This document shows positions 1 through 31,620 of a DNA stretch of 36,718 nt, in pieces; the first letter of the stretch is position 1, and each line of letters opens with the position of its first letter. Position numbers and translations under genes: made by a program. A model generated the notes under the pieces. That model made no database searches, was not told the DNA's origin, and was given only the letters and a program-made list of their open reading frames with translations. The stretch is from Lysobacterales bacterium (GTDB lineage: Bacteria > Pseudomonadota > Gammaproteobacteria > Xanthomonadales > SZUA-36). The DNA is taken from positions 1 through 36,718 of the forward strand of contig JAOUCS010000023.1 in the NCBI GenBank assembly GCA_029859645.1, in the 5' to 3' direction.

Positions 1-41
1 AGGGAAACAATCAGAATGACGATGAAAATCAGTGACTTCAT
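1..41 (-). CDS. Start of an exported or membrane protein (partial)
   Basis: An ATG at 41-39 on the minus strand overlaps the acyl-CoA dehydrogenase stop codon (TAATG arrangement) and opens a frame that runs off the window. The visible residues are MKSLIFIVILIVS, one Lys followed by an unbroken hydrophobic stretch. That is typical of a signal peptide or a first membrane helix. The overlap implies translation coupled to the upstream dehydrogenase and membership of the same leftward operon. Only 13 codons are visible, so the family and function cannot be stated. Confidence 0.5.
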   Translation of the reverse strand, partial: MKSLIFIVILIVS

Positions 42-1207
42 TACATGCCCTGCAGGCCGCGCTTGGCCAGCGCTCGCGCAATAATCAGGCGTTGAATTTC
101 ACTGGCGCCCTCCCAGATGCGGTCTACGCGAATTTCGCGGCTAAACCGCTCGGCACAGTTTTCCCGCATGTAACCGCGGCCGCCGAAGATCTGCACTGCC
201 CGGTCGGCGATGCGATAGGCGGCCTCGGAGGCATAGAGTTTCGCGATCGAGCAGCGGGCATGGAGCGACTTGACGTCTTCGCCACGGTCATGCGCCTCTG
301 CCGCCTCGAAAGTGATCAGGCGTGCTGCCCATAACTCGGTTACGCTGTCAGCGAGCATCGCCTGCACCATTTGCTTGTCGATCAGCTTGCCGCCGTCCAC
401 TTCCCTTTCCTTCGCCCAGGCGGTTGCTTCCTCGATCAGCCTGGCGGCTGCGCCACAATCTCTTGCGGCGATCATTAATCGTTCGCGTCGGAACCAGCTG
501 TGGGAGAAGGTCATGCCGTCACCCTCGGCGCCGATGCGGTTCGCTTCGGGAATCAGTACGTTGTTGAATCGCAACTCCGGGTGGTGATGGTCAAAAGTGT
601 GACTGAACAACGGCACGCGGATTTCTTCGATTCCCGGGGTGTCTTTGTCGAGGAAAAACATCGCATCGCTGCCGGCATGCGGGCCATTGACCAGTTTGGC
701 CTGCAGGAAGAAGTAATCGGCCAGGTTGGCGCTGGTCACGAACCATTTCTCGCCGTTGACGCGATATCCTTCATCGGTCAGTTCGGCCACTGTATTGACC
801 ACCACGTCAGAACCGGATTCGGCCTCGGTAATGGCGTAACATTCCTTTCGATTACCCGTCATCAGCGGCAGTACATAGCGTTGCAGCTGTTCCTCATTGC
901 AGGCCTCGAACATCCATTCGTGCGGTTCTGAAAAACACCAGCACAGTGCATTGGTGACGCGACCCAGCTGTTCCCAGACGGCCACCTGGTCGATTGTGCG
1001 CAGTTGCAGACCGCCGTATTCCTTCGGCACATCCATGGAACTGAATCCCAGCTTCACCGCCATTTGCTTGTGCTGCCTGGCGACCTCCGCCGGTAAACGG
1101 CCCTCGTTCATTTCAGCCTCGAGCTCACAGGGGATCAATTCCTCCTCTGCAAATCTCCGGGCCTTGCCCTGCCATTCCCGGCTGGTCTGATCCAGGTTGA
1201 GTTTCAA
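41..1207 (-). CDS. Acyl-CoA dehydrogenase family flavoprotein
   Basis: This 388-residue protein has the normal length and order of the acyl-CoA dehydrogenase fold: N-terminal helical domain, middle beta domain with the AITEAESGSD flavin/substrate segment (about 125-135), and C-terminal helical bundle. The C-terminus carries QIFGGRGYMRE and RIWEGASEIQRL, where Glu366 of WEG is at the usual catalytic-base position. It should oxidise an acyl-CoA to the 2,3-enoyl-CoA and pass electrons to ETF. The start is TTG, overlapping the TetR stop as TTGA; an in-frame stop lies just upstream and GGAG sits 9 nt before it. The enoyl-CoA hydratase and CoA ligase in the opposite arm suggest a shared beta-oxidation branch. 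DmdC-like MMPA-CoA dehydrogenases belong to the same superfamily, so substrate identity is open. Confidence 0.9.
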   Translation of the reverse strand: MKLNLDQTSREWQGKARRFAEEELIPCELEAEMNEGRLPAEVARQHKQMAVKLGFSSMDVPKEYGGLQLRTIDQVAVWEQLGRVTNALCWCFSEPHEWMFEACNEEQLQRYVLPLMTGNRKECYAITEAESGSDVVVNTVAELTDEGYRVNGEKWFVTSANLADYFFLQAKLVNGPHAGSDAMFFLDKDTPGIEEIRVPLFSHTFDHHHPELRFNNVLIPEANRIGAEGDGMTFSHSWFRRERLMIAARDCGAAARLIEEATAWAKEREVDGGKLIDKQMVQAMLADSVTELWAARLITFEAAEAHDRGEDVKSLHARCSIAKLYASEAAYRIADRAVQIFGGRGYMRENCAERFSREIRVDRIWEGASEIQRLIIARALAKRGLQGM

Positions 1208-1857
1208 GGCTGTTTACTCCTGCCGGGAAAATGACGGGGAAACGTGATGGCCAGGTAGCTCATGCAAATCCGCCTTGCATGTTCCCTGGTCATGCAACGC
1301 GGGTTGGTCAGCAAGTCCAGCCATAGGCCGGATGTCATTGCGGACAGAGATGCTGCGACGGATTTCGCGTCCAGGTTTTGGTAGCCACCCTGATCTACCA
1401 GGTCGTGGCAGGCCTGCTGCAATTCAGCGCGGTATTCCATGTCGCGCATCGCACAGATTTTGCGGTAGGTGGGACGCGATTTACTCTCCCCCCAGAAAGC
1501 AAACCACACCGCCAGCTTGTTGCGGTCGCATACGGGAGCCTTGAAGTCCATGGCGACCATCGCCGCCAGCCGGTCGGCCGGATCATCCCCTGCTTTGAAT
1601 ACGGCCTTTTCCCAGGTCTCACGGTACTGCTCCGACAGGAATCGTAAAGTTTCCACCAGCAGGCGGTCCTTACTCTGGAAATGCAGGTTGATGATTCCCT
1701 GGCTCAAGCCGGCTTCGCTTGAGACTGTCGCCATGGTGGTGTCGGACATGCCGTTTTTCGCCACGGAGCGGATGGTTGCCTGAATCAGTTGTTGCTGCCG
1801 TTCTTGCTTGGGAGCGGTCCTTTTCCGGGCCGGTGATTTGAGTGCTGCTTTGCCCAA
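1204..1857 (-). CDS. TetR-family transcriptional regulator, BetI-like
   Basis: This 217-residue regulator has an N-terminal TetR helix-turn-helix at about residues 20-65 (QLIQATIRSVAKNGMSDTT, then GLSQGIINLHFQSKD) and a BetI-type ligand domain recognisable by AVWFAFWGES and GLWLDLL. BetI controls choline/glycine betaine genes, and relatives often sense quaternary-ammonium or related catabolic substrates. The start is TTG with GAGG about 5 nt upstream; no ATG occurs before the DNA-binding domain. It is the first gene of the leftward operon and diverges from the aminotransferase, with a 22-bp palindrome beyond its start. It probably represses both arms until a substrate or CoA intermediate appears. 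The ligand is unknown. Confidence 0.88.
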   Translation of the reverse strand: MGKAALKSPARKRTAPKQERQQQLIQATIRSVAKNGMSDTTMATVSSEAGLSQGIINLHFQSKDRLLVETLRFLSEQYRETWEKAVFKAGDDPADRLAAMVAMDFKAPVCDRNKLAVWFAFWGESKSRPTYRKICAMRDMEYRAELQQACHDLVDQGGYQNLDAKSVAASLSAMTSGLWLDLLTNPRCMTREHARRICMSYLAITFPRHFPGRSKQP

Positions 1858-1928
1858 TGGATCCTCGCTTTGTCGCGATGCGGTTGCAGTAAAGGATATT
1901 CAATATAAAAGACTCCCGCTCCGTTTGC

Positions 1929-1950
1929 AATGAATGAACAATCATTCATT
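1929..1950. promoter_or_regulatory. Perfect 9+4+9 palindrome, probable TetR operator
   Basis: AATGAATGA and TCATTCATT form a perfect 9-bp inverted repeat with a 4-nt spacer between the divergent TetR and aminotransferase genes. Size and symmetry fit a TetR-family dimer site. The repeat covers the first ATG of the aminotransferase frame (1930), so either binding blocks initiation directly or the true start is downstream. Confidence 0.65.
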
Positions 1951-3327
1951 CGCTATGGACAAATGCACCCGTGGTATGAGAACCTAGACTCCGTCGAAAA
2001 ACAGCAGAATCCCATGCCCCGCTCATTACAGAATTCCAACCGCCATCATCAAAAAGCTTTGCAAAAGCTTCCACTGGGCGTTTCCTCAAATTTCCGCTAC
2101 TGGGGCGAAGACAAAACCATTTACATTGAAAAGGGTCGCGGCGGACGCCTGTGGGACATAGACGGCAACGAATACATCGATTACCGCATGGGCTACGGGC
2201 CGGGAATTCTCGGTTATGCCGACCCCAGGGTAGACCAGGCGGCCCGCGAGGGCATGGAGGTCGGTGGCGTATTCGCGCTTTCCACCGAGCTCGAATACGA
2301 GGTGGCGAACCGAATATCAAAGATGGTGCCCGCCGCCGAACTGATTCGGTTCTCGAATTCGGGCACCGAAGCGGTGATGGCCGCATTGAGGCTGGCCCGG
2401 GCTTATACCGGTAAAGACTCCCAAATAGTGGTAGAAGGTGGTTATCACGGGGTGTTCGATGCCGTGCTGTGGTACGCCGATATCGAGGAATGGGATCCGG
2501 CCACCGGCGACCCGCCGATCGAGGCGGACAGCGAGGGTATTCCAAGCCTGCTGAAGAAGCTGGCCCACTTCACGCCCCTGAACGACGCCAATTACCTGGA
2601 AGACCTGCTCAAGCGCCACCACCAGAGCATCGGCGCCTTCCTGATCGAGCCCATCATGGGCAATTGTTGCTCCATCACGGCCACGCGCGAGTACGTGCAG
2701 GCGGCCCGCGAACTCTGCGACCGTTACAACGTCGTGATGATCATCGACGAGGTCAAAACCGGCTTCCGCGTGGCCCGCGGCGGCGTGCAGGAATTGCTCG
2801 GAGTGCAAGCTGATCTGTGCACTTTCGCCAAGGCCGTGGGTAATGGCTACCCCATATCGGTAGTGGCTGGCCGGGAATACATCATGCGGAAAATCGGTGA
2901 TGGGGTGATCCACGGCGGCACCTACACCTGCCATTCCGTTGCGCTGGCAGCGGCGAACCGGACCCTGCAGATTCTCGATGAGACAGATGCACTGGAAACG
3001 ATCGCTGAATACGGCTCAGCCATGCAGAAGGGCATGAGCGAAATCCTGGGCAACCGCGGCATCCCTCACTCTTTTGTCGGGCACCCATCAATGGGGGGAC
3101 TGTTCTTCAGGGATATGCCACCATCCAATTACCGTGACTGGCTGGATTCCGACTACACGTTTTATGACGCCCTGGCGCCGGAGTTGCACGATCTGGGTGT
3201 CCTGTGCGAGCCGGATTCCCGTGAGCCCTGGTTCATCTGCGAGGCGCACTCGAACGACGACAGTCTTGACGATACCCTGGCGGCATTTGCACAGGCCGTC
3301 GATACCACCATGAACAAGCTTGAATAA
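1930..3327 (+). CDS. Class III aminotransferase, glutamate-1-semialdehyde aminomutase-like
   Basis: This 465-residue PLP enzyme has the class III fold. FSNSGTEAVMAALRLARA binds the PLP phosphate, MIIDEVKTGFR supplies the Asp under the cofactor ring, and TFAKAVGNGYP carries the Schiff-base lysine (Lys301 counted from 1930). It resembles HemL-like enzymes, but no tetrapyrrole genes are nearby and the setting is catabolic, so amine transfer from a pathway intermediate is more likely. It is the first gene of the rightward arm; a GTG-started flavoprotein follows after 15 nt. The start is uncertain: ATG 1930 lies inside the palindrome, and ATGs at 1963 and 2014 are alternatives. The last gives MPRSLQNSN, a more usual N-terminus for this group. 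No candidate has a strong ribosome site. Confidence 0.85.
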   Translation: MNEQSFIRYGQMHPWYENLDSVEKQQNPMPRSLQNSNRHHQKALQKLPLGVSSNFRYWGEDKTIYIEKGRGGRLWDIDGNEYIDYRMGYGPGILGYADPRVDQAAREGMEVGGVFALSTELEYEVANRISKMVPAAELIRFSNSGTEAVMAALRLARAYTGKDSQIVVEGGYHGVFDAVLWYADIEEWDPATGDPPIEADSEGIPSLLKKLAHFTPLNDANYLEDLLKRHHQSIGAFLIEPIMGNCCSITATREYVQAARELCDRYNVVMIIDEVKTGFRVARGGVQELLGVQADLCTFAKAVGNGYPISVVAGREYIMRKIGDGVIHGGTYTCHSVALAAANRTLQILDETDALETIAEYGSAMQKGMSEILGNRGIPHSFVGHPSMGGLFFRDMPPSNYRDWLDSDYTFYDALAPELHDLGVLCEPDSREPWFICEAHSNDDSLDDTLAAFAQAVDTTMNKLE

Positions 3328-3342
3328 TACGGAGTTGAAACC

Positions 3343-4965
3343 GTGACCAAAAAATATGACGCGATCGTCATCGGTGCAGGCCACAACGGCCTGACCAATG
3401 GCGCCTATCTCGCCAAGGCAGGGCTGAATACCCTGATGGTGGAGAAGAATGAGCATATCGGGGGCGCCACAACCAGCCTGCCCAGGTATAAAGATGACTG
3501 GATCTATTCGAATTGCTCATACGTATGCAGCCTGCTGCGGCCGGAGGTGTACCGCAGCCTGAACCTGGCGAAATATGGCCTGCAGGTGGTGCCCTATGGC
3601 GGCGCCGTGACCATCGCGGAAAACGGCGACTACATCGGCTCCTACGTGGACCCGGACAAGGCTCGTCGCGAGGTCGCCCGGCACAGCCACCGCGACGCCG
3701 ACGCCACTGCGCGCTTCGACCGCGACATCATGCGCCAGTGCCGCTTCATCCGGCAGTTCCTGCTGCGCACGCCGCCCGACCCCACTTCGTTCAAACCGCG
3801 TGACCTGCTCGAGATGATGTACATGGGCAAGGAGGCACTGAAGCTGGGCGAGGACCTGATTTACGACACGATGCGTTTCTACACGATGAGCATCTCGGAC
3901 TTTCTCGATGAATACTTCGAAAACCCGCTGGTCAAGGCGTCACATTCCGGCAGCGGCATCATCGGTTCCGCGTTGGGCGTCATGTCGCCTGGCACGGCAT
4001 ACATTCTGCTGCATCACGCCATGGGGGACGTGGACGGCAGCATGGGCGCCTGGGGCTTTGCCCGCGGCGGCATGGGTGCTATATCGAAAGCCATGTACGA
4101 CTGCTTTACCGATTATGGCGGCGAGACCCTGACCGGTAACGGCGTCGACCAGATCATCGTCAAGAACGGCCGTGCGGTTGGTGTGGCCCTGGAAAATGGC
4201 GACGAACATTATGCCGATGTCATTGTGTCCAACATGACATTGCCCCGCACTTTCCTCGAATGCATGGATCCGAAAGACCTGGACCCGGGCTTCCTGAAGA
4301 AAGTGAAGAATTTCAAAATTCGCGGCTCCTCCGGCAAGATCAACATCGCCCTCGACGGCGTGCCAAAATTCACCGCCCTGCCCGAAAACAGCGAACTGGC
4401 CCGCGGCGACATGCACCTGATCGACTCGACCGAACGGCTCGAGCGTGCCTACGACGACTGGAAGGACGGTATCTGGTCGCAGGATCCGTACATTGACATG
4501 CTGATTCCTTCGCTAACCGATCCGACCATGACACCTCCGGGCAAACATTTCATGTCGTTATTCGTGCAGTACGTGCCACCGAGAATCAAGGGCAAGGACT
4601 GGACCGATCAACAGGTACAGCAGTTCGCTGACACCGTGATCAACCAGATCGAAGAATACGCGCCGGGATTCAAGGACCTGATCCTGCACATGGAAGTCCG
4701 CACCCCGCGCGAACTGGAGAACGAGGTTGGATTGACCGAGGGTAACATCTTCCAGGGTGAACTCACGCTGGACCAGTTGCTGTTCAACCGGCCGATACCG
4801 GGTTATGCCCAGTACCGGGGCCCGGTGAAGGGCATGTACATGTGTGGATCTTCCACCGCACCGGGTGGCGGCGTGATGTCCGCGCCGGGCGCCAACGCGG
4901 CCCGGGAAATTCTCGGTGACCTGAATAAAACCAACACGGTTCCGGAGGGCTGGCTCGATGACTAA
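3343..4965 (+). CDS. CrtI/PYROXD2-like FAD-dependent oxidoreductase, copy 1
   Basis: This 540-residue flavoprotein opens with an ADP-binding Rossmann motif (VIGAGHNGLTNGAYLAKAG, then a Glu and an IGGA segment). It ends with the family's second FAD segment, GMYMCGSSTAPGGGVMSAPG. That layout is typical of the phytoene-desaturase/PYROXD2 group, whose members oxidise or isomerise C-C or C-N bonds. The start is GTG, with GGAG 8 nt upstream. Its last 8 nt overlap the start of a second gene of the same family, so the two are probably co-translated and may form a heteromeric or sequential pair. There is no carotenoid context, so phytoene is not a likely substrate. The actual substrate cannot be deduced. 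Confidence 0.88.
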   Translation: MTKKYDAIVIGAGHNGLTNGAYLAKAGLNTLMVEKNEHIGGATTSLPRYKDDWIYSNCSYVCSLLRPEVYRSLNLAKYGLQVVPYGGAVTIAENGDYIGSYVDPDKARREVARHSHRDADATARFDRDIMRQCRFIRQFLLRTPPDPTSFKPRDLLEMMYMGKEALKLGEDLIYDTMRFYTMSISDFLDEYFENPLVKASHSGSGIIGSALGVMSPGTAYILLHHAMGDVDGSMGAWGFARGGMGAISKAMYDCFTDYGGETLTGNGVDQIIVKNGRAVGVALENGDEHYADVIVSNMTLPRTFLECMDPKDLDPGFLKKVKNFKIRGSSGKINIALDGVPKFTALPENSELARGDMHLIDSTERLERAYDDWKDGIWSQDPYIDMLIPSLTDPTMTPPGKHFMSLFVQYVPPRIKGKDWTDQQVQQFADTVINQIEEYAPGFKDLILHMEVRTPRELENEVGLTEGNIFQGELTLDQLLFNRPIPGYAQYRGPVKGMYMCGSSTAPGGGVMSAPGANAAREILGDLNKTNTVPEGWLDD

Positions 4966-6511
4966 CACCAACAACATCGTCATCATTGGCGGCGGCCATA
5001 ACGGCCTGGTATGCGCAGCCTACCTGGCCAAGGCCGGCAAGAACGTCACGGTATTGGAAGCATCAGAAGAAGTTGGCGGCCCGGCGGCCACCCGCGAATT
5101 TGCACCCGGCTACAAGGCTTCCTGCGCCCACTTGCTGAACCTGCTGGATGACGGCATCAGGGAAGAACTTGAGCTATCGTCCAACGGCCTGTCCATTGCG
5201 AAAGAGAACCTGACCACCATCGCACTGGCCAAGGATGGAAACCACATCACCATCACGCCAGACAGCGTGGAGGGTAGCGGCCTGACCGCTGAAGACAAGG
5301 CTGCCTACGCCGAGTACCGACGTTTCATGACGAAATTCGCCGGGATTATCGGCGCCATGCATAACCTGGTACCCCCCAGGATCACCACGGACAAGGAGAA
5401 CCTGGTGCCGATGGCGAAGCTGGCCTGGAAAGTGCGCATGCTGGGACGCGATGACATGCGCGAACTGCTGCGGATCGGCGGTATCAACATCTATGACGTG
5501 CTAAAGGAGAACTTCGACAACCCGCTGCTGAAAGGCGCACTGAGCCTGGATGCAGTGCTCGGCACCTTCTCCGGCCCGCGCTCGAACAACAGCGTATTCA
5601 CGGCTCTGCACCGGATGAGCGGCAACAACAGTGGAGCAGCAGGCGCAGCATCGATACCCGCCGGCGGCATGGGCGGCGTGATGCAGGCTATCGCGGGCGC
5701 CGCCTCCAGGGCAGGCGCCGAAATCCGCATCAGCAGCCCGGTCAAACGCATCCTGATGGACGGCATGGCGGTTTCCGGCGTGGAGTTGGAAAATGGCGAA
5801 CAGATTTCAGCCTCAACCGTTATTTCCAATGCCGACGTCAGGACCACCATCCTGGACTTGCTGGGCGCACGCCACGTGGAGGCCGACTTCGCCCGCCGGG
5901 TCAGCAACATCCGCAGCAAGGGCAATGCCGCCAAGCTTCACCTGGCGCTGGACGGCTTGCCTTCCTTCGCAGGTTTGAACGAGTCCCAACTGGGAGAGCG
6001 GCTGGTCATCGCACCTTCCGTAGAATACGTGGAGCATGCTTTCAACCACTGTAAATACGGCGAGTTCTCGGCTCAACCGGTCGCGGAAATTACGCTTCCA
6101 AGCATTCATGACCGATCACTGGCTCCGGATGGAAAACACGTTCTGTCCGCAATTGTTCAATATGCGCCGCGCGAACTGGGAACCGGCTGGACCGAGGGCA
6201 AAGCCGCTTTCAGCAACGCCATCATGGATGTGCTGGAAACCTACGCCCCTGATGTTCGCGAAAGGACCGTTGCTACCGAACTGCTGACCCCGCAAGACAT
6301 GGAAAAAGAGTTCGGTATGACCGGCGGCCACTGGCACCACGCGGAGCTGTCGCTTGACCAGTTCCTGATGCTGAGGCCGGTACCCAGGTCGGCCCAGTAC
6401 AAAAGCCCGGTCGATGGCCTGTACCTGTGTGGCGCCGGTTGTCACCCGGGTGGCGGCATCATGGGTAGTGCCGGAAAGAATGCGGCAAACGTCATCCTGG
6501 CAGATCAGTAA
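4958..6511 (+). CDS. CrtI/PYROXD2-like FAD-dependent oxidoreductase, copy 2
   Basis: This 517-residue paralogue of the preceding gene has an N-terminal FAD motif, IIGGGHNGLVCAAYLAKAG, and a C-terminal segment, GLYLCGAGCHPGGGIMGSAG. It overlaps the upstream gene by 8 nt. The pair share architecture and several blocks but have diverged in the substrate half: CSYVCSLLRPEV in copy 1 corresponds to CAHLLNLLDDGI here. This points to an old duplication with different or complementary roles rather than a recent copy. An 17-nt gap containing AAGGGACGG separates it from the GcvT-family gene. It probably oxidises an amine-bearing or unsaturated intermediate of the same pathway. Confidence 0.88.
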   Translation: MTNTNNIVIIGGGHNGLVCAAYLAKAGKNVTVLEASEEVGGPAATREFAPGYKASCAHLLNLLDDGIREELELSSNGLSIAKENLTTIALAKDGNHITITPDSVEGSGLTAEDKAAYAEYRRFMTKFAGIIGAMHNLVPPRITTDKENLVPMAKLAWKVRMLGRDDMRELLRIGGINIYDVLKENFDNPLLKGALSLDAVLGTFSGPRSNNSVFTALHRMSGNNSGAAGAASIPAGGMGGVMQAIAGAASRAGAEIRISSPVKRILMDGMAVSGVELENGEQISASTVISNADVRTTILDLLGARHVEADFARRVSNIRSKGNAAKLHLALDGLPSFAGLNESQLGERLVIAPSVEYVEHAFNHCKYGEFSAQPVAEITLPSIHDRSLAPDGKHVLSAIVQYAPRELGTGWTEGKAAFSNAIMDVLETYAPDVRERTVATELLTPQDMEKEFGMTGGHWHHAELSLDQFLMLRPVPRSAQYKSPVDGLYLCGAGCHPGGGIMGSAGKNAANVILADQ

Positions 6512-6528
6512 AGGGACGGAACAGCATT

Positions 6529-7734
6529 ATGAGAACAGTAAATTTCAGTAGCGACCACTACAAAGACGCGGTCTTCCCCAGCCCTTTCCATTCACGGCAG
6601 AAGCAACACAACCAGCTCAAGGAATGGACGCGCTGGGCGGATTACCTGTCGGTGCCCGCCTATTGGTGTGCCGACATGGAGTATTTTTCCGGCCGTAACG
6701 CCTGCGGTGTGTTCGATATCACGCCGATGGTCAAGCACCTGGTCACCGGGCCGGACGCCCTGCCCTACCTGAACCGCCTGATGACGCGCGACGTCAGCAA
6801 GATCAAGCCGGGCCGGGTCGGTTACAGCGTCTGGTGCAACGAGGCCGGGCGGGTCATCGATGACGGCACGATCTTCCACTTGAGAGAAGGCGTTTACCGC
6901 ATCTGTTCGCAGGAGCACCAGATCGACTGGTTCATGACCAATATGCTGGGCTTCGACGTGGAAATCACCGAAGACACCCACGACGTCGCGGGCCTGGCTG
7001 TGCAGGGTCCCACCAGCTGCGCAATCCTCAAGGACATGGGACTGGAAGGCATCGAGAACCTGACGCCGTTCGGGCTGACCTATTTCGATTTCGAGGGCAC
7101 TGAACTGATGGTGTCGCGCACGGGCTTCACCGGCGACCTCGGCTACGAGTTATTTATTGACCCTGACTACGCCGAAGTATTGTGGGATCGCCTGTTCGCC
7201 GCGGGTGAGTTACGCGGCATCAAGGCCATGGGCAGCGAAGCGCTGGACTTGTTGCGTATTGAAGCCGGATTCATCCTCGCAGGTGTCGATTTTCTGCCGG
7301 CGATGGAAGCGGTGCGCCCGACCCACACCCGTTCGCCTTTTGAATTGGGGCTGGGCTGGTTGGTGAGCTTCGACAAGGGCGTCTTCAACGGGCGGCAGGC
7401 TCTGCTGGAAGAAAAGGAAAAGGGTTCCCGCTATAACCTGGTCAAGCTGGACATCGACGGTAACAAGCCTGCCAAGGACTCCTTCGTTTACGTCAAGGGC
7501 GGCAAAAAAATTGCCGGTACCGTGACCTCGGCCATGTGGTCGCCTTCGGCCAAGGCCAGCATTGCTCTGGCGTCGCTGGAAGCTCCGCTGGGCCAACCCG
7601 GTGAGGAATTTGAAGTAGAGATCTATTACCAGCGTGAGCTGAAATGGAGCCGGGTCATGGCTCCTGCACGCGTGGTGAAAGACGTGTTCTGGAATCCACC
7701 GCGGAGACGGCAGACGCCGCCAGCGGATTTTTGA
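6529..7734 (+). CDS. GcvT-family aminomethyltransferase, probable THF-dependent demethylase
   Basis: This 401-residue protein has the GcvT fold. Residues GRNACGVFDITP (55-66) begin the folate-binding domain, NEAGRVIDDGTIFHL carries the conserved acidic pair (Asp111/Asp112), and SRTGFTGDLGYELF follows. A C-terminal beta domain ends near residue 390. Glycine-cleavage T-protein works with GcvH and GcvP, neither of which is present. Stand-alone members (DmdA, LigM-type demethylases, dimethylglycine-type enzymes) transfer a methyl or one-carbon unit from an N-, S- or O-methyl substrate to tetrahydrofolate, and that is the likely role here. An AGGGACGG purine run precedes the ATG. A hairpin-bounded repeat element lies 22 nt downstream. 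The exact methyl donor is unknown. Confidence 0.85.
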   Translation: MRTVNFSSDHYKDAVFPSPFHSRQKQHNQLKEWTRWADYLSVPAYWCADMEYFSGRNACGVFDITPMVKHLVTGPDALPYLNRLMTRDVSKIKPGRVGYSVWCNEAGRVIDDGTIFHLREGVYRICSQEHQIDWFMTNMLGFDVEITEDTHDVAGLAVQGPTSCAILKDMGLEGIENLTPFGLTYFDFEGTELMVSRTGFTGDLGYELFIDPDYAEVLWDRLFAAGELRGIKAMGSEALDLLRIEAGFILAGVDFLPAMEAVRPTHTRSPFELGLGWLVSFDKGVFNGRQALLEEKEKGSRYNLVKLDIDGNKPAKDSFVYVKGGKKIAGTVTSAMWSPSAKASIALASLEAPLGQPGEEFEVEIYYQRELKWSRVMAPARVVKDVFWNPPRRRQTPPADF

Positions 7735-7756
7735 GATAGGCCAGACTATGGCAGTT

Positions 7757-7869
7757 GAGGTATCAGTCCAGAGCCCTGTTTACCGGACACGCTCGAGACG
7801 TCCCTGTTCGCTCTTCGGCTGCTCCCGACAGCCGAGGGTTCTGCAAACTGGGCTCTGGACTGATACCTC
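7757..7869. repeat. Repeat element copy 1: conserved core within 25-bp inverted arms
   Basis: Arms 7757-7781 and 7845-7869 are inverted repeats of each other (24 of 25 positions; the outer 20 are perfect). They enclose a core at 7785-7838 that recurs, inverted, at 28449-28502 with 50 of 54 identical positions. Inside the core, CTTCGGCTG and CAGCCGAGG form a second hairpin. The arms are unrelated in sequence to those of the other copy. The element lies between two co-directional operon genes and would fold in the transcript. Confidence 0.85.
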
Positions 7870-7893
7870 CGCCGATACCCTGGTCTAATTCTG

Positions 7894-9996
7894 ATGAAGG
7901 GCAGGCACCACGTATTAGACCCCTTGCTTCGGCCGGCTTCCATCGCGGTGGTTGGCGCGAGTGAACGGCAGCATTCCGTGGGACGCCGAACCATCGAGAA
8001 CCTGTTGACGGGCGAGTATCCGGGACGGCTGTATGCGGTCAATCCCGGCTACGAATCGGTGCTGGGTGTGCCGTGTTTTCCGAACCTGGAATCATTGCCT
8101 GAAACGGTCGAGCACGTGGTGCTTACGCTGGGAGATGCCCGCATCGAGGAGGCTCTGGATGCCGTTATTGAGCATGGCGCCACTGCTGCTACGATGATGT
8201 CTGCGCTGATGCTGGCGGAAGACAGCGAACCGCTGTTGCGTGACCGGATCGAAGCGAAAGTAAAGGCCTCCGGCCTGATCGTCTGCGGCGCTAATGGCAT
8301 GGGTTTCTACAATTGCCTGGACGGGGTCTGGGTGTGTGGATTCGACACGCGTGAAAACCATGTCCGGGGCGGTAACGTCACGCTGATCAGTCATTCCGGT
8401 TCCGGCATGGCGGGCATCATGGACTGCGAAGAGCGCATCGATTTCAACCTGGCGGTGTCCACCGGGCAGGAACTCTGCGTTCGTATGGACCAGTACATGG
8501 ACTGGGCGCTGGAACAGGATGGCACCCGCGCCATCGGCCTGTTCATGGAAACGGCACGTAGCCCGCAGGGAATGATCGCGGCTTTCGAGAAGGCCAACCA
8601 GAAGAACATCCCCGTCGTGGTTTTGAAGGTCGGGAGAACCGAGCTTGCAGCCCGACTCGCCGTGTCCCACTCGGGCGCCATCGCCGGCCGCGACGACACC
8701 TACCAGGCGCTGTTCGACCGCTACGGAGTTCAACGTGTCAATGACATGGACGAACTGGCGACCGCCCTGATCATGTTCGCGCAACCGCACCCGGTCGCGG
8801 ACGGCTCGCTGGTCAGCATCCACGACTCAGGCGGCGAGCGGCAACTGCTGATCGACCTGGCCGCCGAGATGAATGTACCGCTGGCCCGCGTGCGACCCGG
8901 TACGGAAACCCGGCTCGAAGGACTACTCGATCCCGGGCTGCCGCCGGTCAACCCGCTGGATGCCTGGGGTGCCGGCGGGCCGGGGGCGGATCAGATCATG
9001 GAGGACTGCCTGGCCGCAATGATGAGCGATGACAACGCCGCGATTGGCGCAGTAATCCATGACCGTGGACCGTTGAGCAGCCTGTATGATGAGTACTTTG
9101 ACTACATGCGGGCCGGACACGAAGCCTCCGGAAAACCGGTGTTCCTGGTTTCCAACCGCCAGGGCACCGGGACGGATTCCAGGGCGGTGACAATCACCCG
9201 GGAAGGCTTCCCCGTACTGGACGGCATAAGGCCTTTCCTCGCCGGCGCCCGTTGCCTGTTCGAATATCGGGATTTTCAATCGAGACAGACTGCCCCTCTC
9301 CCAGCCCCGGACAAAGATGCCGTTTTGCGCTGGCAATCGAGGCTGGCCAGCGGCGACACACTCGAAGAATATGAATCCACCCGACTACTTGGCGACTTTG
9401 GTGTGCCCGTCAACCCAGCGGAACTGGTATCCACCGAAGAATCCCTGCTCGATGCTGCGGAGCGTTTTGGTTATCCCCTCGTCCTGAAAACCGCTGAGCC
9501 AGGCATTTTGCACAAGACGGATTGTGGCGGAGTGGTTTTGAATATAGAAACCGGGGAACAGTTGCTGACCGCTTATGACGACCTGTCGGCGCGGCTCGGA
9601 GCGCAGGTCATACTGTGTCCCATGCTGCAGGTCAGCGGGGTCGAGATGGTGCTTGGCCTGGTGCGCGATGAACAGTTCGGTCCGTTGGTGATGCTGGGTT
9701 TCGGCGGCGTCAACGTGGAGACCATTCGCGACGTCGCCTATGCCCTGCCACCGTTTGACCGGACGGTAGCCATGCACCTGCTCGACAAGCTCCAATTGCG
9801 CCCCCTGCTGGACGGATTACGCGACCGGCCGGCCGTCGACGCCAGTGCTTTTTGTATCGCAGCGGAACGTTTCTCCATGATGGCCGCAGCGCTGGGAAAC
9901 ACGGTGAACGAGATCGACGTAAACCCTGTCATCGTCCATCCAAACGGGTGTGTAGCGGTGGATGCCCTGGTCATTGGGCACGTACCCGGATCGTGA
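7894..9996 (+). CDS. Acyl-CoA synthetase, NDP-forming (acetate-CoA ligase family)
   Basis: This 700-residue single-chain enzyme has a CoA-binding Rossmann domain (LLRPASIAVVGASERQ, about 10-130), succinyl-CoA-synthetase-like ligase domains (about 150-460) and an ATP-grasp domain (about 485-700). The phosphorylated histidine should be His259 in SHSGAIAG. A second conserved His lies in ILHKTDCGGVVLN near residue 540. It would activate an organic acid as its CoA ester, or run in reverse to save energy as ATP. Its place between a demethylase and an enoyl-CoA hydratase suggests it activates the carbon skeleton for beta-oxidation. ATG 7894 lacks a clear ribosome site. DmdB of the DMSP route is AMP-forming, so this is not a direct counterpart. 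Confidence 0.88.
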   Translation: MKGRHHVLDPLLRPASIAVVGASERQHSVGRRTIENLLTGEYPGRLYAVNPGYESVLGVPCFPNLESLPETVEHVVLTLGDARIEEALDAVIEHGATAATMMSALMLAEDSEPLLRDRIEAKVKASGLIVCGANGMGFYNCLDGVWVCGFDTRENHVRGGNVTLISHSGSGMAGIMDCEERIDFNLAVSTGQELCVRMDQYMDWALEQDGTRAIGLFMETARSPQGMIAAFEKANQKNIPVVVLKVGRTELAARLAVSHSGAIAGRDDTYQALFDRYGVQRVNDMDELATALIMFAQPHPVADGSLVSIHDSGGERQLLIDLAAEMNVPLARVRPGTETRLEGLLDPGLPPVNPLDAWGAGGPGADQIMEDCLAAMMSDDNAAIGAVIHDRGPLSSLYDEYFDYMRAGHEASGKPVFLVSNRQGTGTDSRAVTITREGFPVLDGIRPFLAGARCLFEYRDFQSRQTAPLPAPDKDAVLRWQSRLASGDTLEEYESTRLLGDFGVPVNPAELVSTEESLLDAAERFGYPLVLKTAEPGILHKTDCGGVVLNIETGEQLLTAYDDLSARLGAQVILCPMLQVSGVEMVLGLVRDEQFGPLVMLGFGGVNVETIRDVAYALPPFDRTVAMHLLDKLQLRPLLDGLRDRPAVDASAFCIAAERFSMMAAALGNTVNEIDVNPVIVHPNGCVAVDALVIGHVPGS

Positions 9997-10042
9997 TAAT
10001 GTGGAAGTATCCCTGACGCCCGCAATTCCAAAAGGAACTGCC

Positions 10043-10894
10043 ATGAAATTTGAAACCATCAAGTACGAGAAAGACGGCCCACTTGCCTGGATCACCCTAA
10101 ACCGGCCGGAAAAACTTAACGCAATCAGCCAGACCATGACTGCGGAAATACTTCTCGCCACGGATAAAGCCCAATGCGATGACGAAGTGAGCGTGATCCT
10201 GATCAAGGGAGAGGGCCGGGCCTTTTCGGCCGGCTTCGACCTGGAACCCGAACCCGAGGGTGACCTGGATGAAGACGAAAAGCTGCAGGCGCTGAAACTC
10301 GAATTACACCACGATTTCGACCTGATCATGCGCTTCTGGCACAGCCCCAAACCCACCATTGCCGCGGTGCACACTTATTGCCTCGGCGGCGCGATGGAAC
10401 TGGCGGTCGCCTGTGACCTCACGATTGCAGCCGCCGGCTGTCGCTTTGGCGAGCCGGAAGTGAAATTTGGCAGCGGTGCGGTCGCCATGATCCTGCCTTA
10501 TATTTGCGGCCCGAAGCGGGCGAAGGAAATCCTGCTGACCGGCAATGACCGGATCAGCGCCGAACAAGCCGAGGCCTGGGGCCTGATCAACCGTGTAGTA
10601 AGACCTGAAAATCTGGAGACCAGAGCCCGCGAACTGGCGCTGGAGATCGCCCGCAACGACCAGCATGCGGTGCGCATCACCAAGCAGGCGATCAACAAGA
10701 CCTATGAATTCGGCAAGATGCGCAACGCCCTCAAACACGCCCTGGAACTCGATATCGCGATCGAAAGCACCGAAACGGAAGAGTCCCGCCGTTTCAATGA
10801 AATCCTCCGGGAAAAAGGCGCCAAGGCGGCCATCGAGTGGCGCGACGAGCGGCTGGGTTACACGGGGCAGGTGAAGCGTCATGACATCGGGTGA
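10043..10894 (+). CDS. Enoyl-CoA hydratase/isomerase family protein
   Basis: This 283-residue crotonase-fold protein has NRPEKLNAIS near residue 20 and the oxyanion-hole segment GRAFSAGFDLE (58-68). Both catalytic glutamates of true hydratases are at the expected places: Glu119 in GGAMELAVACD and Glu139 in FGEPEV. It should hydrate a 2,3-enoyl-CoA. The ATG at 10043 is chosen because AAGGA lies 7 nt before it and the crotonase N-terminus begins there. A longer frame from 9962 would overlap the preceding gene and adds no family sequence. The last 14 nt overlap the glutamine-synthetase-like gene. It probably acts after the acyl-CoA dehydrogenase across the divergent promoter. Confidence 0.92.
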   Translation: MKFETIKYEKDGPLAWITLNRPEKLNAISQTMTAEILLATDKAQCDDEVSVILIKGEGRAFSAGFDLEPEPEGDLDEDEKLQALKLELHHDFDLIMRFWHSPKPTIAAVHTYCLGGAMELAVACDLTIAAAGCRFGEPEVKFGSGAVAMILPYICGPKRAKEILLTGNDRISAEQAEAWGLINRVVRPENLETRARELALEIARNDQHAVRITKQAINKTYEFGKMRNALKHALELDIAIESTETEESRRFNEILREKGAKAAIEWRDERLGYTGQVKRHDIG

Positions 10895-12254
10895 CCTGAA
10901 GGCAGAGCTCGACCGCTACCTCGCGGAACACCCGGAAACGAGGTTCATGGAGCCGCTGATCACCGACATGAACGGTATCCTGAGGGGCAAGCGGGTCGGC
11001 GTGGAAGAACTGGGCAAAGCGTTCAAAAACGGCGTCAACATGTGCGCCGCGACGACCATCCTCGATACCCTGGGAAATACCTTTGAAAACGTGCCTTATG
11101 GCCTGAATGATGGCGACCCGGACGCAAAGGCTTTTGCCGTCCCGGGCAGCCTGGCGCCGGTGCCCTGGGCGACCTTGCCGACAGCCCAGGTACTGCTCGA
11201 ACTGGTTGAACTGGACGGCAGCCCGAATGAGAACGACCCGCGCAATGTGCTGCGAAGAGCCATGCAGCCACTGTATGACCTGGGGTTGAGGCCGGTGCTG
11301 GCGCTGGAACTAGAGTTCTACCTGGTCGAATACGATGGCCAGCATTTCCAGCCGCGATGCCCCCGGATTCCGGGATCCGATCTACCGCAACCGGGCATGC
11401 AATACGAAGTGATGGAAGACCTTTACGAGGTCGATGATTTCCTGATGGATCTGAATGCCATCTGCAAGATACAGAACATCCCGGTCGGCGCGGCACTGTC
11501 TGAATTCTCACCCGGCCAGTTCGAAGTCAACCTGCATCACGTCGATGACCCGGTACTGGCCTGCGACCATGCCATGCTGCTCAAACGCGCTGTAAAAGCC
11601 GCGGCAAGGAAACACGACCTGGCTGCCACCTTCATGGCCAAACCTTTTGCCGACACGGCCGGCAGCGGCATGCATGTGCACGTAAGCCTGCTGGACGAAG
11701 ACGGCAACAACGTCTTCGCCGGCGAGAGCACCGACGGTGATTTTTCTGATACGCTACGCCATGCCATCGGCGGACTCGGCGAAGCCATGCCGGAAAGCGT
11801 TGCGCTGTTCGCGCCCAATGCAAATTCATACCGCCGCCACGCCCCCGGCAATTTCGTTCCCGCCGCACCGGAATGGGGACCCAACCACCGCGGCGTGGCC
11901 TTGCGCCTGCCGTTGGCCGGACCCGGCAACAAGCGTTTCGAGCATCGCGTCGCCGGCGCTGATGCCAATCCCTACTTTGTTGTGTCGGCCATCCTGGCGG
12001 GCATCCACCACGGAATCTCCAACCGGATTGAGCCAAGGCCAATGACCCCGGAACGGGCCAAGCTGAACTACCGGGTGGAAATTCCGATCCGCTGGCCGCA
12101 GGCCCTGGATGCCTTCGATAATGGAGAAATCCTGCCCCGCTACCTCGGCAGCGACTATCATGGGCTATATTCCGACTGCCGGCGCGAAGAAGAGGCAAAT
12201 TACAACGCGGAAATCCCGGCGAAAGACTTCGAGTGGTTTATGCGGGCTGTCTAA
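10881..12254 (+). CDS. Glutamine synthetase family protein, PuuA-like gamma-glutamyl ligase
   Basis: This 457-residue protein keeps the glutamine synthetase catalytic landmarks. LELEFYL and EFSPGQFEVNLHH supply metal-binding glutamates, KPFADTAGSGMHVHVS is the ATP signature, and NHRGVALRLP is followed by FEHRVAGADANPY. The Tyr-containing adenylylation loop of housekeeping GlnA is not evident. Relatives such as PuuA (putrescine), GmaS (methylamine) and IpuC (isopropylamine) join glutamate to an amine to start its breakdown. The setting beside amine-acting flavoproteins, an aminotransferase and a demethylase supports gamma-glutamylation of an amine rather than ammonia assimilation. It overlaps the hydratase gene by 14 nt and ends the rightward arm. 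The amine substrate is not known. Confidence 0.88.
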   Translation: MTSGDLKAELDRYLAEHPETRFMEPLITDMNGILRGKRVGVEELGKAFKNGVNMCAATTILDTLGNTFENVPYGLNDGDPDAKAFAVPGSLAPVPWATLPTAQVLLELVELDGSPNENDPRNVLRRAMQPLYDLGLRPVLALELEFYLVEYDGQHFQPRCPRIPGSDLPQPGMQYEVMEDLYEVDDFLMDLNAICKIQNIPVGAALSEFSPGQFEVNLHHVDDPVLACDHAMLLKRAVKAAARKHDLAATFMAKPFADTAGSGMHVHVSLLDEDGNNVFAGESTDGDFSDTLRHAIGGLGEAMPESVALFAPNANSYRRHAPGNFVPAAPEWGPNHRGVALRLPLAGPGNKRFEHRVAGADANPYFVVSAILAGIHHGISNRIEPRPMTPERAKLNYRVEIPIRWPQALDAFDNGEILPRYLGSDYHGLYSDCRREEEANYNAEIPAKDFEWFMRAV

Positions 12255-28567: not shown

Positions 28568-30070
28568 TCAGTTACTGCTGGGGAAAGTATATTGAGCCTT
28601 CTCCCGCACCCCACCCTTCGGCCAGCGCTGCGTAATCGTCTTGCGGCGGGTGTAAAACCGCACTGAATCAGGCCCATAGGCAAACAGGTCGCCGAACAGG
28701 GAGCGCTTCCAGCCACCGAAGCTGTGGTAGGCAACAGGCACCGGCAGCGGCACATTCACGCCCACCATGCCGACCTTGATGTTGTCACTGAAGTATCGGG
28801 CGGCCTCACCGTCACGCGTAAATATGCAGGTTCCGTTCCCGTACTCGTGGTTGTCGATCAGGTCCATGGCTTCCTGCATGTTCTGGGCGCGCACCACGCA
28901 TAAAACCGGGCCGAAGATTTCGTCGTTGTAGATTTTCATCTCCTGCGTGACGCGGTCGAACAGCGTCCCGCCGAGGAAAAAGCCTTCTTCACAGCCTTCG
29001 ACCACCAGGCCGCGGCCGTCGACGACCAGGTCGGCGCCCTCTTCCACGCCCAGGTCGATGTAGCCCTTGACCCTGTCACGGGCCTCGCCGGTGACCAGCG
29101 GACCCATGTTGTTCGAGTTGTCGTTGCCGTTGCCGACTTTCAGTTCAGCCAGTTCGTCTTTCAATTTACTTACCAGGGCGTCGGCCGTATCGTCGCCTAC
29201 TGCCACTGCCACCGAGATGGCCATGCAGCGCTCGCCACAGGATCCATAGGCCGCCCCCATCAGTGCCGACACCGCGTTGTCCATGTCGGCGTCCGGCATC
29301 ACGATGGCGTGGTTCTTGGCCCCGCCCAGCGCCTGCACCCGCTTACCGTTAGCGCTGCCGGTGCTGTAAATGTATTCCGCGATGGGAGTGGAGCCAACGA
29401 ATGAAACGGCTTGCACCCGCGGGTCGGCCAGCAGGGTGTCGACCGCTTCCCTGTCGCCGTTGACCACGTTGAATACGCCGTCAGGCAGGCCAGCTTGCTG
29501 GAACAACTGGGCGATGAACAAAGGCGCCGATGGGTCCCGCTCAGATGGTTTTAACACGAACGTATTACCGCAAACGATGGCCATCGGGTACATCCACATC
29601 GGCACCATCGCCGGAAAGTTGAACGGGGTTATCCCTGCAACCACACCCAGCGGCTGGAATTCGCTCCAGCTGTCGATGGCCGGGCCGACGTTTTTGCTAT
29701 GCTCCCCTTTCAGCAGTTCGGGTGCGCCGCAGGCGTATTCGACCACTTCGACACCGCGTTGGAATTCACCGAGTGCGTCATGCAGCACCTTGCCATGTTC
29801 CTCGGTGATCAACGCTGCAACTTTTTCAGCATTCTGTTCCAGCAGTTCCTTGAAGCGGAACATGATGCGGGCCCGCTTGATCGGCGGCGTGTTCCGCCAC
29901 TCGGGAAACGCGGCTTCGGCCGCAGCAATGGCGTCTTCGACGGTGGACCTGGCCGCCAACGCTACCTTCCTCACAGCCTGGCCCGTTGCCGGGTTGAACA
30001 CGTCCTGGCTGCGTCCACTGTCCGGGACGTTCTGCCCGTTGATGAAATGGCCGATGGTTTCGTTACTCAT
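28568..30070 (-). CDS. mmsA: CoA-acylating methylmalonate-semialdehyde dehydrogenase
   Basis: This 500-residue aldehyde dehydrogenase has the MmsA pattern: [13 protein letters not shown] with oxyanion Asn151, [10 protein letters not shown], and nucleophile Cys282 in GERCMAIS. The glutamate that activates water in hydrolytic dehydrogenases is missing, with LGGAKNH in its place; this is characteristic of the CoA-acylating family. It converts methylmalonate or malonate semialdehyde with CoA and NAD+ to propionyl- or acetyl-CoA plus CO2. It lies 14 nt after the omega-aminotransferase in the same operon, the usual pairing for beta-alanine degradation (valine catabolism and myo-inositol are alternatives). 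AGGA is 9 nt before the ATG. A long hairpin repeat follows the stop. Confidence 0.95.
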
Positions 30071-30084
30071 ATCTGGTATTCCTG

Positions 30085-31407
30085 TCAGTCAATTTGATCG
30101 AGGACTTTGCGAACCTTCTCGAAAGTCATCGTAATGTCTTCGGGGCGGGAATTGAGGAACGGTGAGAACTGCAGAATGTCTCCGCCGTTGCGCACCATCA
30201 GGTCTTCTTCCCAGAAACACTTCTTGTGGGCCTCCAGTCCGCGGGCGCCAATTTCTCCGGGCCGGGCCACCAGGTCAATGCCACCCATCAGTCCAAAATT
30301 GCGGATGTCCGAGACCAGCGGATGACCTTTAAAGGCATGCAGTTCGTCCTCGAAATGCTGTTCCAGCGCTCGTGACTGCTCGAAGGTGCCCTCCTCGACG
30401 TAGGCATCCAGCGCAGCAATACCCGCCGCCGCCGCAACCGGGTGGCCTGAATAGGTATAGCCGTGGAACAGTTCGATCGCCTGTTTCGGACCGTGCATGA
30501 AGGCATCGTAAATCTCATCGCGCACCATCACGGCGCCCATTGGGATCACTCCGTTGGTCAGGCCCTTGGCCATGTTGATGATGTCCGGCATTACACCGAA
30601 GCGTTGAGCGCCAAACGGTTCACCGATCCGGCCGAACGCGGTAATGACCTCGTCGAAGATCAGCAAAATGCCATAGTGGTCACAGATCTCACGTAGCCGT
30701 TCCAGGTATCCCACCGGCGGAGGAATGATGCCGGCCGAACCGGAAACCGGCTCGACAATTACCGCGGCGATGTTGCCGCCATCGTGCAGCGCTGCCAGGC
30801 GCTCGAGATCATCCGCCAGGTGCGTGCCCCACTTGGGCTGGCCGCGGCTGAAGGCGTTGTGCTCCAGGTCCCAGGTATGTCGAAGATGATCCACGCACGG
30901 CAGCAGGCTGGCGCCAAAGGCCTTGCGGTTGGGCGTCATGCCGCCGACCGACATGCCGCCGAAATTCACACCGTGGTAACCCTTCTCCCGACCGATCAGG
31001 CGGGTGCGGTGTCCTTCCCCACGCGCGCGGTGATAGCCCAGCGCAATTTTAAGGGAGGTGTCCGCAGACTCTGAACCCGAATTGGTAAAGAAGATTTTGG
31101 AAAAACCTTCCGGTGCAATTGCCGTGACTTTTTCCGCCAGTTCGAAAACCTTGTCCGAACCTGCCTGGAAACCCAGCGAGTAATCCAGCATGGCAACCTG
31201 ATGTTGAACAGCTTCCACAATTTTGGGATGACAATGCCCCAGGCCGCTGGTCCACAACCCGGAGAACGCATCGTATATTCTGCGCCCGTCTTCGGTTTTG
31301 TAGTGGTGACCTTCGGCGCCGACGATGATTCGGGGACTTTCCTTGAAATCCCGATTAGACGTAAAAGGCATCCAGTAGGAGTCGACTGCTGTGCGGCTGA
31401 TACTCAT
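30085..31407 (-). CDS. Class III omega-aminotransferase, beta-alanine:pyruvate type
   Basis: The start at ATG 31407 gives 440 residues beginning [19 protein letters not shown], the usual N-terminus of this group, with GAGG 9 nt upstream; upstream ATGs at 31434 and 31470 lack ribosome sites. Class III PLP features include [29 protein letters not shown] and the lysine in [17 protein letters not shown]. Such enzymes move the amino group of beta-alanine, or other omega-amino acids, to pyruvate. The product, malonate semialdehyde, is the substrate of the following mmsA gene, which supports this specificity. Taurine or GABA could be side substrates, but no sulphonate or succinate-semialdehyde genes are nearby. 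Confidence 0.92.
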
Positions 31408-31452
31408 TTGATTAAACCTCGGACTTTTCAACATGCAGACAATATGACGTCT

Positions 31453-31460
31453 ATTATAAT
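31453..31460. promoter_or_regulatory. ATTATAAT: perfect -10 hexamers on both strands
   Basis: The 8-nt palindrome gives TATAAT on the minus strand (31458-31453), 46 nt ahead of the aminotransferase start, and TATAAT on the plus strand (31455-31460). The minus-strand box suits the aminotransferase-mmsA operon, but only a poor -35 (TTCTTT) is at 17-nt spacing. The plus-strand box is far from the FecR-domain start. Confidence 0.35.
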
Positions 31461-31620
31461 TAACATCCAACTCAAAAAGAAGGCATGAGAGGTCTTTTAA
31501 TGGCTAAAACGTCAATTATTTTGGCAATCGGCATGCAGTCTCAACTGCAGATCATGACCTGTATCGCTATCTGATCCATCTCCTCGCCTTTGAGGATTCC
31601 AACTGAGATAAACTGTCGGC

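Follow-up and report, generated by a model that had tools for sequence, protein, structure and literature searches.

What compound do the nine genes at the left end of contig JAOUCS010000023.1 from a Lysobacterales bacterium break down? The window studied here is this whole contig (C240, 36,718 nt) of a 3.84-Mb genome in 255 contigs (G000), and an earlier note, made from its sequence alone, had joined the nine genes into one pathway for an N- or S-methylated amine under a BetI-like regulator. Our results indicate that the genes are part of a larger cluster, apparently co-regulated, that occurs in many marine gammaproteobacteria. Judged by gene content, demethylation is a well supported function and an N-methylated amine is a likely substrate; that the substrate is a diamine or polyamine seems to us evenly balanced. 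For the complete reading, in which a co-regulated island serves to break down a diamine- or polyamine-like compound that is N-methylated and probably quaternary, we see an even chance. No description of the gene set was found in the literature searched, most subscription papers lying outside it and the homarine pathway being set apart without a comparison of gene sets.

The nine open reading frames (ORFs) form two divergent units (Table 1). The regulator and an acyl-CoA dehydrogenase (ACAD) run leftward, while an aminotransferase (AT), FADA, FADB, a GcvT-like protein, a CoA ligase, a crotonase and a PuuA-like protein run rightward; FADA and FADB are our labels for two CrtI-like flavoproteins. 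Several neighbouring genes overlap, and the widest gaps are 159 nt before the CoA ligase and about 46 nt after it. Profile models bore out the family assigned to each of the nine ORFs. The AT probably starts near 2014 and not at 1930, because the first 28 residues of the longer ORF are unconserved in 31 aligned rows and the palindrome described below covers 1931-1948.

Table 1. Features at the left end of the window; positions are those of the window.
Feature	Position	Strand	Remarks
Amidohydrolase, first codons, truncated by the contig end	1..41	-	ATG overlaps ACAD stop; rest is C137 ORF 153-1877 (locus L155), PF07969 339 bits
ACAD	41..1207	-	PF00441/02770/02771
TetR regulator, BetI-like, with BetI-type C-terminal domain	1204..1857	-	PF13977, PF00440
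Probable operator, perfect palindrome TGAATGA-ACAA-TCATTCA (TGAATGAnnnnTCATTCA)	1931..1948		Position kept beside TetR in relatives
HemL-like class III AT	2014..3327	+	PF00202; listed ORF starts 1930
FADA, CrtI-like flavoprotein	3343..4965	+	59-91% identity to 24 homologues
FADB, second CrtI-like flavoprotein	4958..6511	+	Profile models; same strand as FADA and GcvT-like in relatives
Stand-alone GcvT-like protein, probable folate-dependent demethylase subunit	6529..7734	+	PF01571, PF08669
NDP-forming acyl-CoA ligase	7894..9996	+	PF13380, PF13607, PF13549
Crotonase (enoyl-CoA hydratase family)	about 10043..10894	+	PF00378; listed ORF starts 9962
PuuA-like glutamine-synthetase homologue	10881..12254	+	41.1% identity to E. 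coli PuuA

Conservation was followed in 105 distinct loci with a full FADA gene, identical FADA ends being counted once. Many loci are cut by contig ends; 43 with at least 7.5 kb on each side are called complete, and the 62 that lacked 7.5 kb on one side were excluded from that set. Gene presence was called by identity cut-offs and coverage above 0.4, and weaker or partial matches were set aside (omega-aminotransferase stretches truncated where the locus stops in L107, L110 and L121; fragments of ACAD in L105, of the ligase in L142, of a Rieske gene in L113 and of PotF in L145; weak ACADs in L142 and L145). Homologues of all nine window genes lie together in 5 of the 105 loci, of eight in 7 more and of seven in 12. 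In the gene-order comparison the genes were not scattered in relatives. FADA, FADB and the GcvT-like gene, the triad, stand on one strand in 87 of the 89 loci with room for them; the two exceptions are L115 and L063, where FADB is present behind a small intervening ORF and was missed by the test. A GcvT orthologue (at least 59% identity) occurs in 29/37 genomes of the same family, the window's own included and one gene being in two fragments, and in 2/24 genomes from other families of the order. Several groups of marine gammaproteobacteria carry the triad, as do some alphaproteobacteria. Scanning named genomes with a FADA alignment confirmed at least 580 stretches (of at least 593) encoding a FADA relative, paralogues included. 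At least 79 distinct loci were retained, and their titles assign them to Woeseiaceae, Halieaceae, Porticoccaceae, OM182, Pseudohongiella, Mesorhizobium, Kiloniella and other groups. Carriers available in culture are Kiloniella laminariae (L140), Aestuariispira insulae (L132) and a Mesorhizobium sp. (L147).

The span 41-12254 previously given for the cluster proved too short. Contig C137, from the same genome, opens with a stretch that is, apart from 2 mismatches, the reverse complement of the window's first 193 bases, which shows that C137 begins inside the ACAD gene and carries the leftward unit onward. Position 41 is next to a contig end inside the cluster and is not its boundary. C137 encodes the amidohydrolase, a GbcA-like Rieske oxygenase, an MTHFR-family protein, two adjacent MttB proteins, a B12-binding corrinoid protein, a DUF1638 protein, a pterin-binding methyltransferase and a RACo-like protein, whose gene end is overlapped by an ORF for a hydantoinase-A-like protein. 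Farther along are an MtrC/MtrF-like cytochrome, a third MttB and two DAO-type oxidases, one of them 77% identical to a PuuB-like protein of our panel. In the family member G015, contig C26 (L047, L166, L167) has the identical order unbroken, from AT and regulator to RACo, followed later by MttB3 and two DAO oxidases. Contig C32 of G012 holds all modules in one run. Its genes encode a PuuB-like oxidase, the MttB and corrinoid proteins, the Rieske protein, PotI, PotH, PotG, two PotF proteins, ACAD, regulator, AT, FADA, FADB, GcvT, ligase, aldehyde dehydrogenase (ALDH), crotonase and PuuA-like ligase. The cytochrome of C137 (L168:4891-7149; PF22113, 179 bits) is of the outer-membrane multihaem type.

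The regulator passed the cut-off of the BetI model PRK00767 (122.7 vs. 118 bits) and carries PF13977, while it stayed below that of TIGR03384 (127.3 vs. 201.3 bits). Neither betA nor betB was seen among the nine cluster genes or the model-tested genes of C137, the rest of the window being mostly outside model testing. In 56 of 67 loci, the window included, a copy of TGAATGAnnnnTCATTCA with up to 2 mismatches lies no farther than 350 nt from the start of the regulator gene, compared with a mean of 0.13 loci and a maximum of 1 in 31 rounds of a shuffle control. Of the 11 loci that lack it, ten are alphaproteobacterial and the other is L093. In its own genome the copy at 1931-1948 is the sole perfect match; 13 other places match at 2 mismatches and none at 1, and a reversed control pattern gave 3. 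Because the location of the palindrome is conserved, it is probably an operator between the divergent units. Perfect copies also lie upstream of a small PF05118 gene (Asp/Asn beta-hydroxylase family) at L126:321, L131:368 and L143:8, which makes this gene a possible extra member of the regulon. L088, a locus in which no regulator was found, has a further perfect copy between its Rieske and FADA genes.

Which chemistry would such a regulator control? The GcvT-like protein is nearest to GcvT and to the folate half of trimethylamine N-oxide (TMAO) demethylase, and aligns with the folate domains of dimethylglycine dehydrogenase (DMGDH), dimethylglycine oxidase and sarcosine oxidase. Among NCBIfam models it scores highest with TMAO demethylase, in the GcvT half (238.3 bits, below the full-length cut-off of 1100). 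A role in glycine cleavage was rejected on the GcvT cut-offs, which the protein did not reach (TIGR00528, 171.7 vs. 235.85 bits; PRK00389, 224.4 vs. 300 bits). In DMGDH-type enzymes, including heterotetrameric sarcosine oxidase and TMAO demethylase, a GcvT-type folate domain works with an N-methyl dehydrogenase partner; here, by contrast, GcvT is a separate protein and its linked partners are two CrtI-type flavoproteins. A further GcvT-sized homologue (35% identity) lies on contig C210 of the same genome, outside the model-tested set.

The flavoproteins had been called PYROXD2-like, a label we take as an assumption; the models actually matched were CrtO/CrtI and PF01593. They could instead be desaturases or isomerases in a cluster for lipid or terpenoid chemistry: the best NCBIfam match is CrtO (274.3 bits, cut-off 1000), and the predicted structure of FADA (pLDDT 79, pTM 0.83) gave a carotenoid desaturase as top fold match, with Z 34.0. 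The putrescine oxidase and monoamine oxidase (MAO) group, however, shares the fold (Z about 21-24), and fold likeness of the FADA model by itself shows no function. A lysine is found in both proteins (K332, invariant, in FADA; K326, in 99/104, in FADB) and may be the amine-oxidase lysine. Given the linkage with GcvT in 87/89 loci and the company of Rieske N-demethylase relatives, polyamine transporters and aminotransferases, we consider the desaturase explanation very improbable.

Independent pointers to N-demethylation are the neighbouring relatives of Rieske N-demethylases and the MttB and corrinoid genes. The Rieske protein of G004, 77% identical to that of C137, has as nearest structures 3vca/4qup, presumably the demethylase named Stc2, then 3n0q and then carnitine monooxygenase. 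The cluster thus resembles the Rieske monooxygenases for proline betaine, carnitine and glycine betaine (Stc2, CntA, GbcA), but cluster-type proteins score 318-325 bits against the GbcA cut-off of 670 (NF058607, the best NCBIfam match of the C137 protein at 324.6 bits) and the downstream genes differ. Exactly one match to the C137-type Rieske protein at E <= 1e-60 was present in each of 12/12 family genomes tested. The three MttB proteins of C137 passed PF06253 (334.3, 312.2 and 658.4 vs. 25 bits), and the two adjacent ones stayed below TIGR02369, the pyrrolysine-type trimethylamine methyltransferase model (350.7 and 328.2 vs. 525 bits). MttB1 is nearest to glycine betaine and trimethylamine methyltransferases, nearly tied. 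The three MttB corrinoid methyltransferase genes (L155/L168) share their genome with the oxygen-using Rieske enzyme. The nearest aerobic corrinoid system in the literature searched is MtgBCD of Ruegeria, known from aerobic marine bacteria (PMC12478193), which likewise has MttB-type, corrinoid-binding, pterin-type methyltransferase and activase-like proteins. In the present cluster such genes are joined by a Rieske oxygenase, by PuuA-like genes and by the split flavin/GcvT triad, a combination that the accessible part of PMC12478193 does not mention.

With these neighbours, the conserved order and the palindrome, the N-methyl half of the earlier proposal held, while the S-methyl half did not. 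Demethylation of dimethylsulfoniopropionate (DMSP) by DmdABCD shares a GcvT-fold enzyme with CoA ligase, ACAD and crotonase; the comparison was made by DmdA alone. The sulfonium reading was rejected, since the GcvT-like protein reached 135.1 bits against the DmdA cut-off of 410 (PRK12486), amine genes occur throughout and no tested gene points to sulfur chemistry.

These demethylation genes would also suit a zwitterionic betaine (glycine betaine, gamma-butyrobetaine, beta-alanine betaine or 5-aminovalerate betaine), demethylated by MttB or Rieske plus the triad, its amino acid then being degraded by AT, ligase, ACAD and crotonase in steps some of which resemble DMSP demethylation or carnitine metabolism. 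The relatives of the Rieske protein by structure search presumably act on betaines, and the nearest solved relative of MttB1 is glycine betaine methyltransferase. ACAD, ligase and crotonase suit a carboxylate, PotF was not found in the window's own genome, and none of that genome's three GcvT matches (E <= 1e-30) is a long fused protein. Moreover, R. pomeroyi uses MtgBCD on glycine betaine aerobically, as described in PMC12478193.

Against a betaine stand the relatives of PuuA, PuuB and PuuC and PotF-like proteins that retain the acidic diamine contacts. The PuuA-like protein is 41.1% identical to E. coli PuuA over 450 residues (1.6e-114), although it stayed below the PuuA cut-off (NF045547, 200.5 vs. 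650 bits). Of 17 printed positions of its glutamine-synthetase-type motif, whose roles are assumed here, 15 are invariant in 27 rows and two, E331 and H355, vary. In relatives, the ALDH is 46-48% identical to PuuC, whose model cut-off it did not reach, and the DAO-type oxidase is 40-45% identical to PuuB (four members each). A PotF- or PotD-like binding protein lies in 27 of the 43 complete loci and a Rieske gene in 22. All 28 PotF-like proteins keep W37, D39, W244, D247, D278 and Y314 of E. coli PotF, residues we take to line the pocket; three of the six are acidic, and a dication would therefore fit better than a betaine. S38, E185 and F276 are mostly changed, and the protein of L096 stayed below PRK10682 (354.6 vs. 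636 bits). The Trp at position 276 (28/28) was dropped as an aromatic cage for a quaternary nitrogen, since the polyamine-binding protein 3ttl has Trp there too. Glycine betaine itself, in addition, would need no AT, ligase, ACAD or PuuA. Taken together, we regard a betaine substrate as rather unlikely.

The E. coli Puu pathway (PuuA, B, C, D, E) is accordingly matched by the PuuA-like ligase, by the PuuC-like ALDH and PuuB-like oxidase of relatives, to which the C137 oxidase belongs by identity, and by polyamine-type uptake genes nearby in relatives. It differs in that the cluster regulator is BetI-like and not PuuR, in the added N-demethylation machinery and CoA ligase/ACAD pair, in PuuA and PuuC model scores below cut-off and in having no PuuD match. 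In many relatives the PuuC-like ALDH lies between CoA ligase and crotonase, and it is absent at 9996-10043 of the window. Of two other loci, that of the same-genus genome G001 (L040) likewise has no ALDH there, and that of G003 (L042) does.

The aminotransferase appears to vary. The window's AT stayed under the cut-off of each of the 25 NCBIfam models listed, scoring highest with GntE (446.6 vs. 525 bits; with HemL TIGR00713, 333.8 vs. 527.3 bits). Among the 43 complete loci the HemL-like AT (13) and an omega-aminotransferase (19) never co-occur (Fisher 1e-4); neither was called in 11, of which L107, L110 and L121 hold an omega-aminotransferase cut by the locus end and 8 clearly lack both. On a FADA tree built by a quick method, whose 'neither' group includes L107, L110 and L121, the two labels alternate and need 10 and 11 changes, of which well-supported branches force 7 and 9. 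In our reading, one aminotransferase has repeatedly been exchanged for another in the same role. An MMSDH (680 bits) and an AptA-type omega-aminotransferase (662 bits), both above model cut-offs, lie at 28568-31470 (-) of the window; being 16 kb from the cluster, they were excluded as members. Similar pairs were found near triads in L068 and L119.

At the cut-offs used, 13/43 complete loci have both ACAD and CoA ligase, and none has just one of the two (Fisher 3e-11, kinship ignored). A role of the ACAD as glutaryl-CoA dehydrogenase (cadaverine route) was set aside, weakly, for want of an evident counterpart of the presumed glutaryl-binding Arg in its conserved TNALcWCFsEp stretch. That this pair acts separately, that the crotonase is mostly confined to the own family (exceptions L091, L101, L109) and that the triad can occur apart from other panel genes would all be expected if two or more adjoining pathways shared one regulator, a general N-methylamine demethylase (triad with Rieske/MttB) lying beside an unrelated amine/acyl-CoA route. 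The single conserved palindrome between the divergent units, the overlapping genes and the presence of at least seven of the nine genes together in 24/105 loci argue for one island, and we judge such a composite improbable.

Several observations weigh against a single island for an N-methylated polyamine-like compound. The loci, selected for their similarity to FADA, are not independent of one another. The palindrome is not above chance in the window alone when counted at up to 3 mismatches, and it was not found at up to 2 mismatches in the C137 stretches. MttB proteins occur in only 7/12 family genomes tested, so corrinoid chemistry is not obligatory. Neither a Pot binding protein nor a Rieske gene is present in 8/43 complete loci (two of the 8 have partial matches), and in some loci, such as L067 and L090, the triad stands without other panel genes. 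Within 18 kb of a second, diverged triad of the own genome (L065, contig C195; order FADB-FADA-GcvT; GcvT 49%, FADA 59%), nothing matched the Puu, Pot or Rieske proteins of the panel. In the window's own genome a PotF-like protein was looked for and not found, so the substrate class has to be read from relatives; the genome's best homologue of the missing operon ALDH is 47% identical and lies elsewhere, and the glutamine amidotransferase (GATase) showed no BLAST similarity to PuuD. Finally, a simple route of the putrescine type has no need of ACAD, ligase or crotonase. Loci related to L065 (L066, L068, L069) have PuuB-like oxidases nearby.

From gene content, order, conservation, the palindrome and the contig link we infer the following reactions and step order for the polyamine-like reading, with operator function and substrate class. 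Uptake would be by a Pot-type ABC importer, as encoded near 27/43 complete related loci, none having been found in the own genome. The quaternary nitrogen would lose a methyl group by MttB/corrinoid transfer to folate (C137 genes) and/or, as formaldehyde, through the GbcA-like Rieske enzyme. FADA and FADB would oxidise remaining N-methyl groups to iminium, and the separate GcvT-like protein would hand the carbon to tetrahydrofolate (THF) as 5,10-methylene-THF, a split version of the chemistry that DMGDH, dimethylglycine oxidase and sarcosine oxidase perform in single enzymes. The bared amine may then be gamma-glutamylated by the PuuA-like ligase and/or transaminated by the AT, an aldehyde dehydrogenase (PuuC-like in relatives) would yield the acid, and the NDP-forming ligase, ACAD and crotonase would take it through CoA-bound oxidation. 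The BetI-like repressor would control both divergent units through the palindrome.

Which natural compound could this be? Homarine catabolism (Nat Microbiol 2026), which is reported in PMC13390433 to involve Mgd, likewise concerns a marine N-methyl compound and may be related. Diatom silaffins bear di- and trimethylated lysines and N-methylated oligo-propyleneimine chains, as given in PMC4557024, and on this basis biosilica polyamines are, speculatively, a candidate substrate. The pathway might then mineralise N-methylated or quaternary polyamines such as long-chain polyamines of diatom biosilica or methylated silaffin lysine side chains, by corrinoid, Rieske and split flavin/GcvT demethylations followed by Puu-type breakdown, with variants in Halieaceae, Porticoccaceae, OM182 and Woeseiaceae; we think this specific proposal improbable.

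The question of the substrate is directly testable, since ligand screens can be run on the PotF-like binding proteins of relatives and on the BetI-like regulator. If the triad is a new tetrahydrofolate-linked N-demethylase, methylated dissolved organic nitrogen would have a sink that has so far gone unrecognised, and the triad would provide a marker gene for it.

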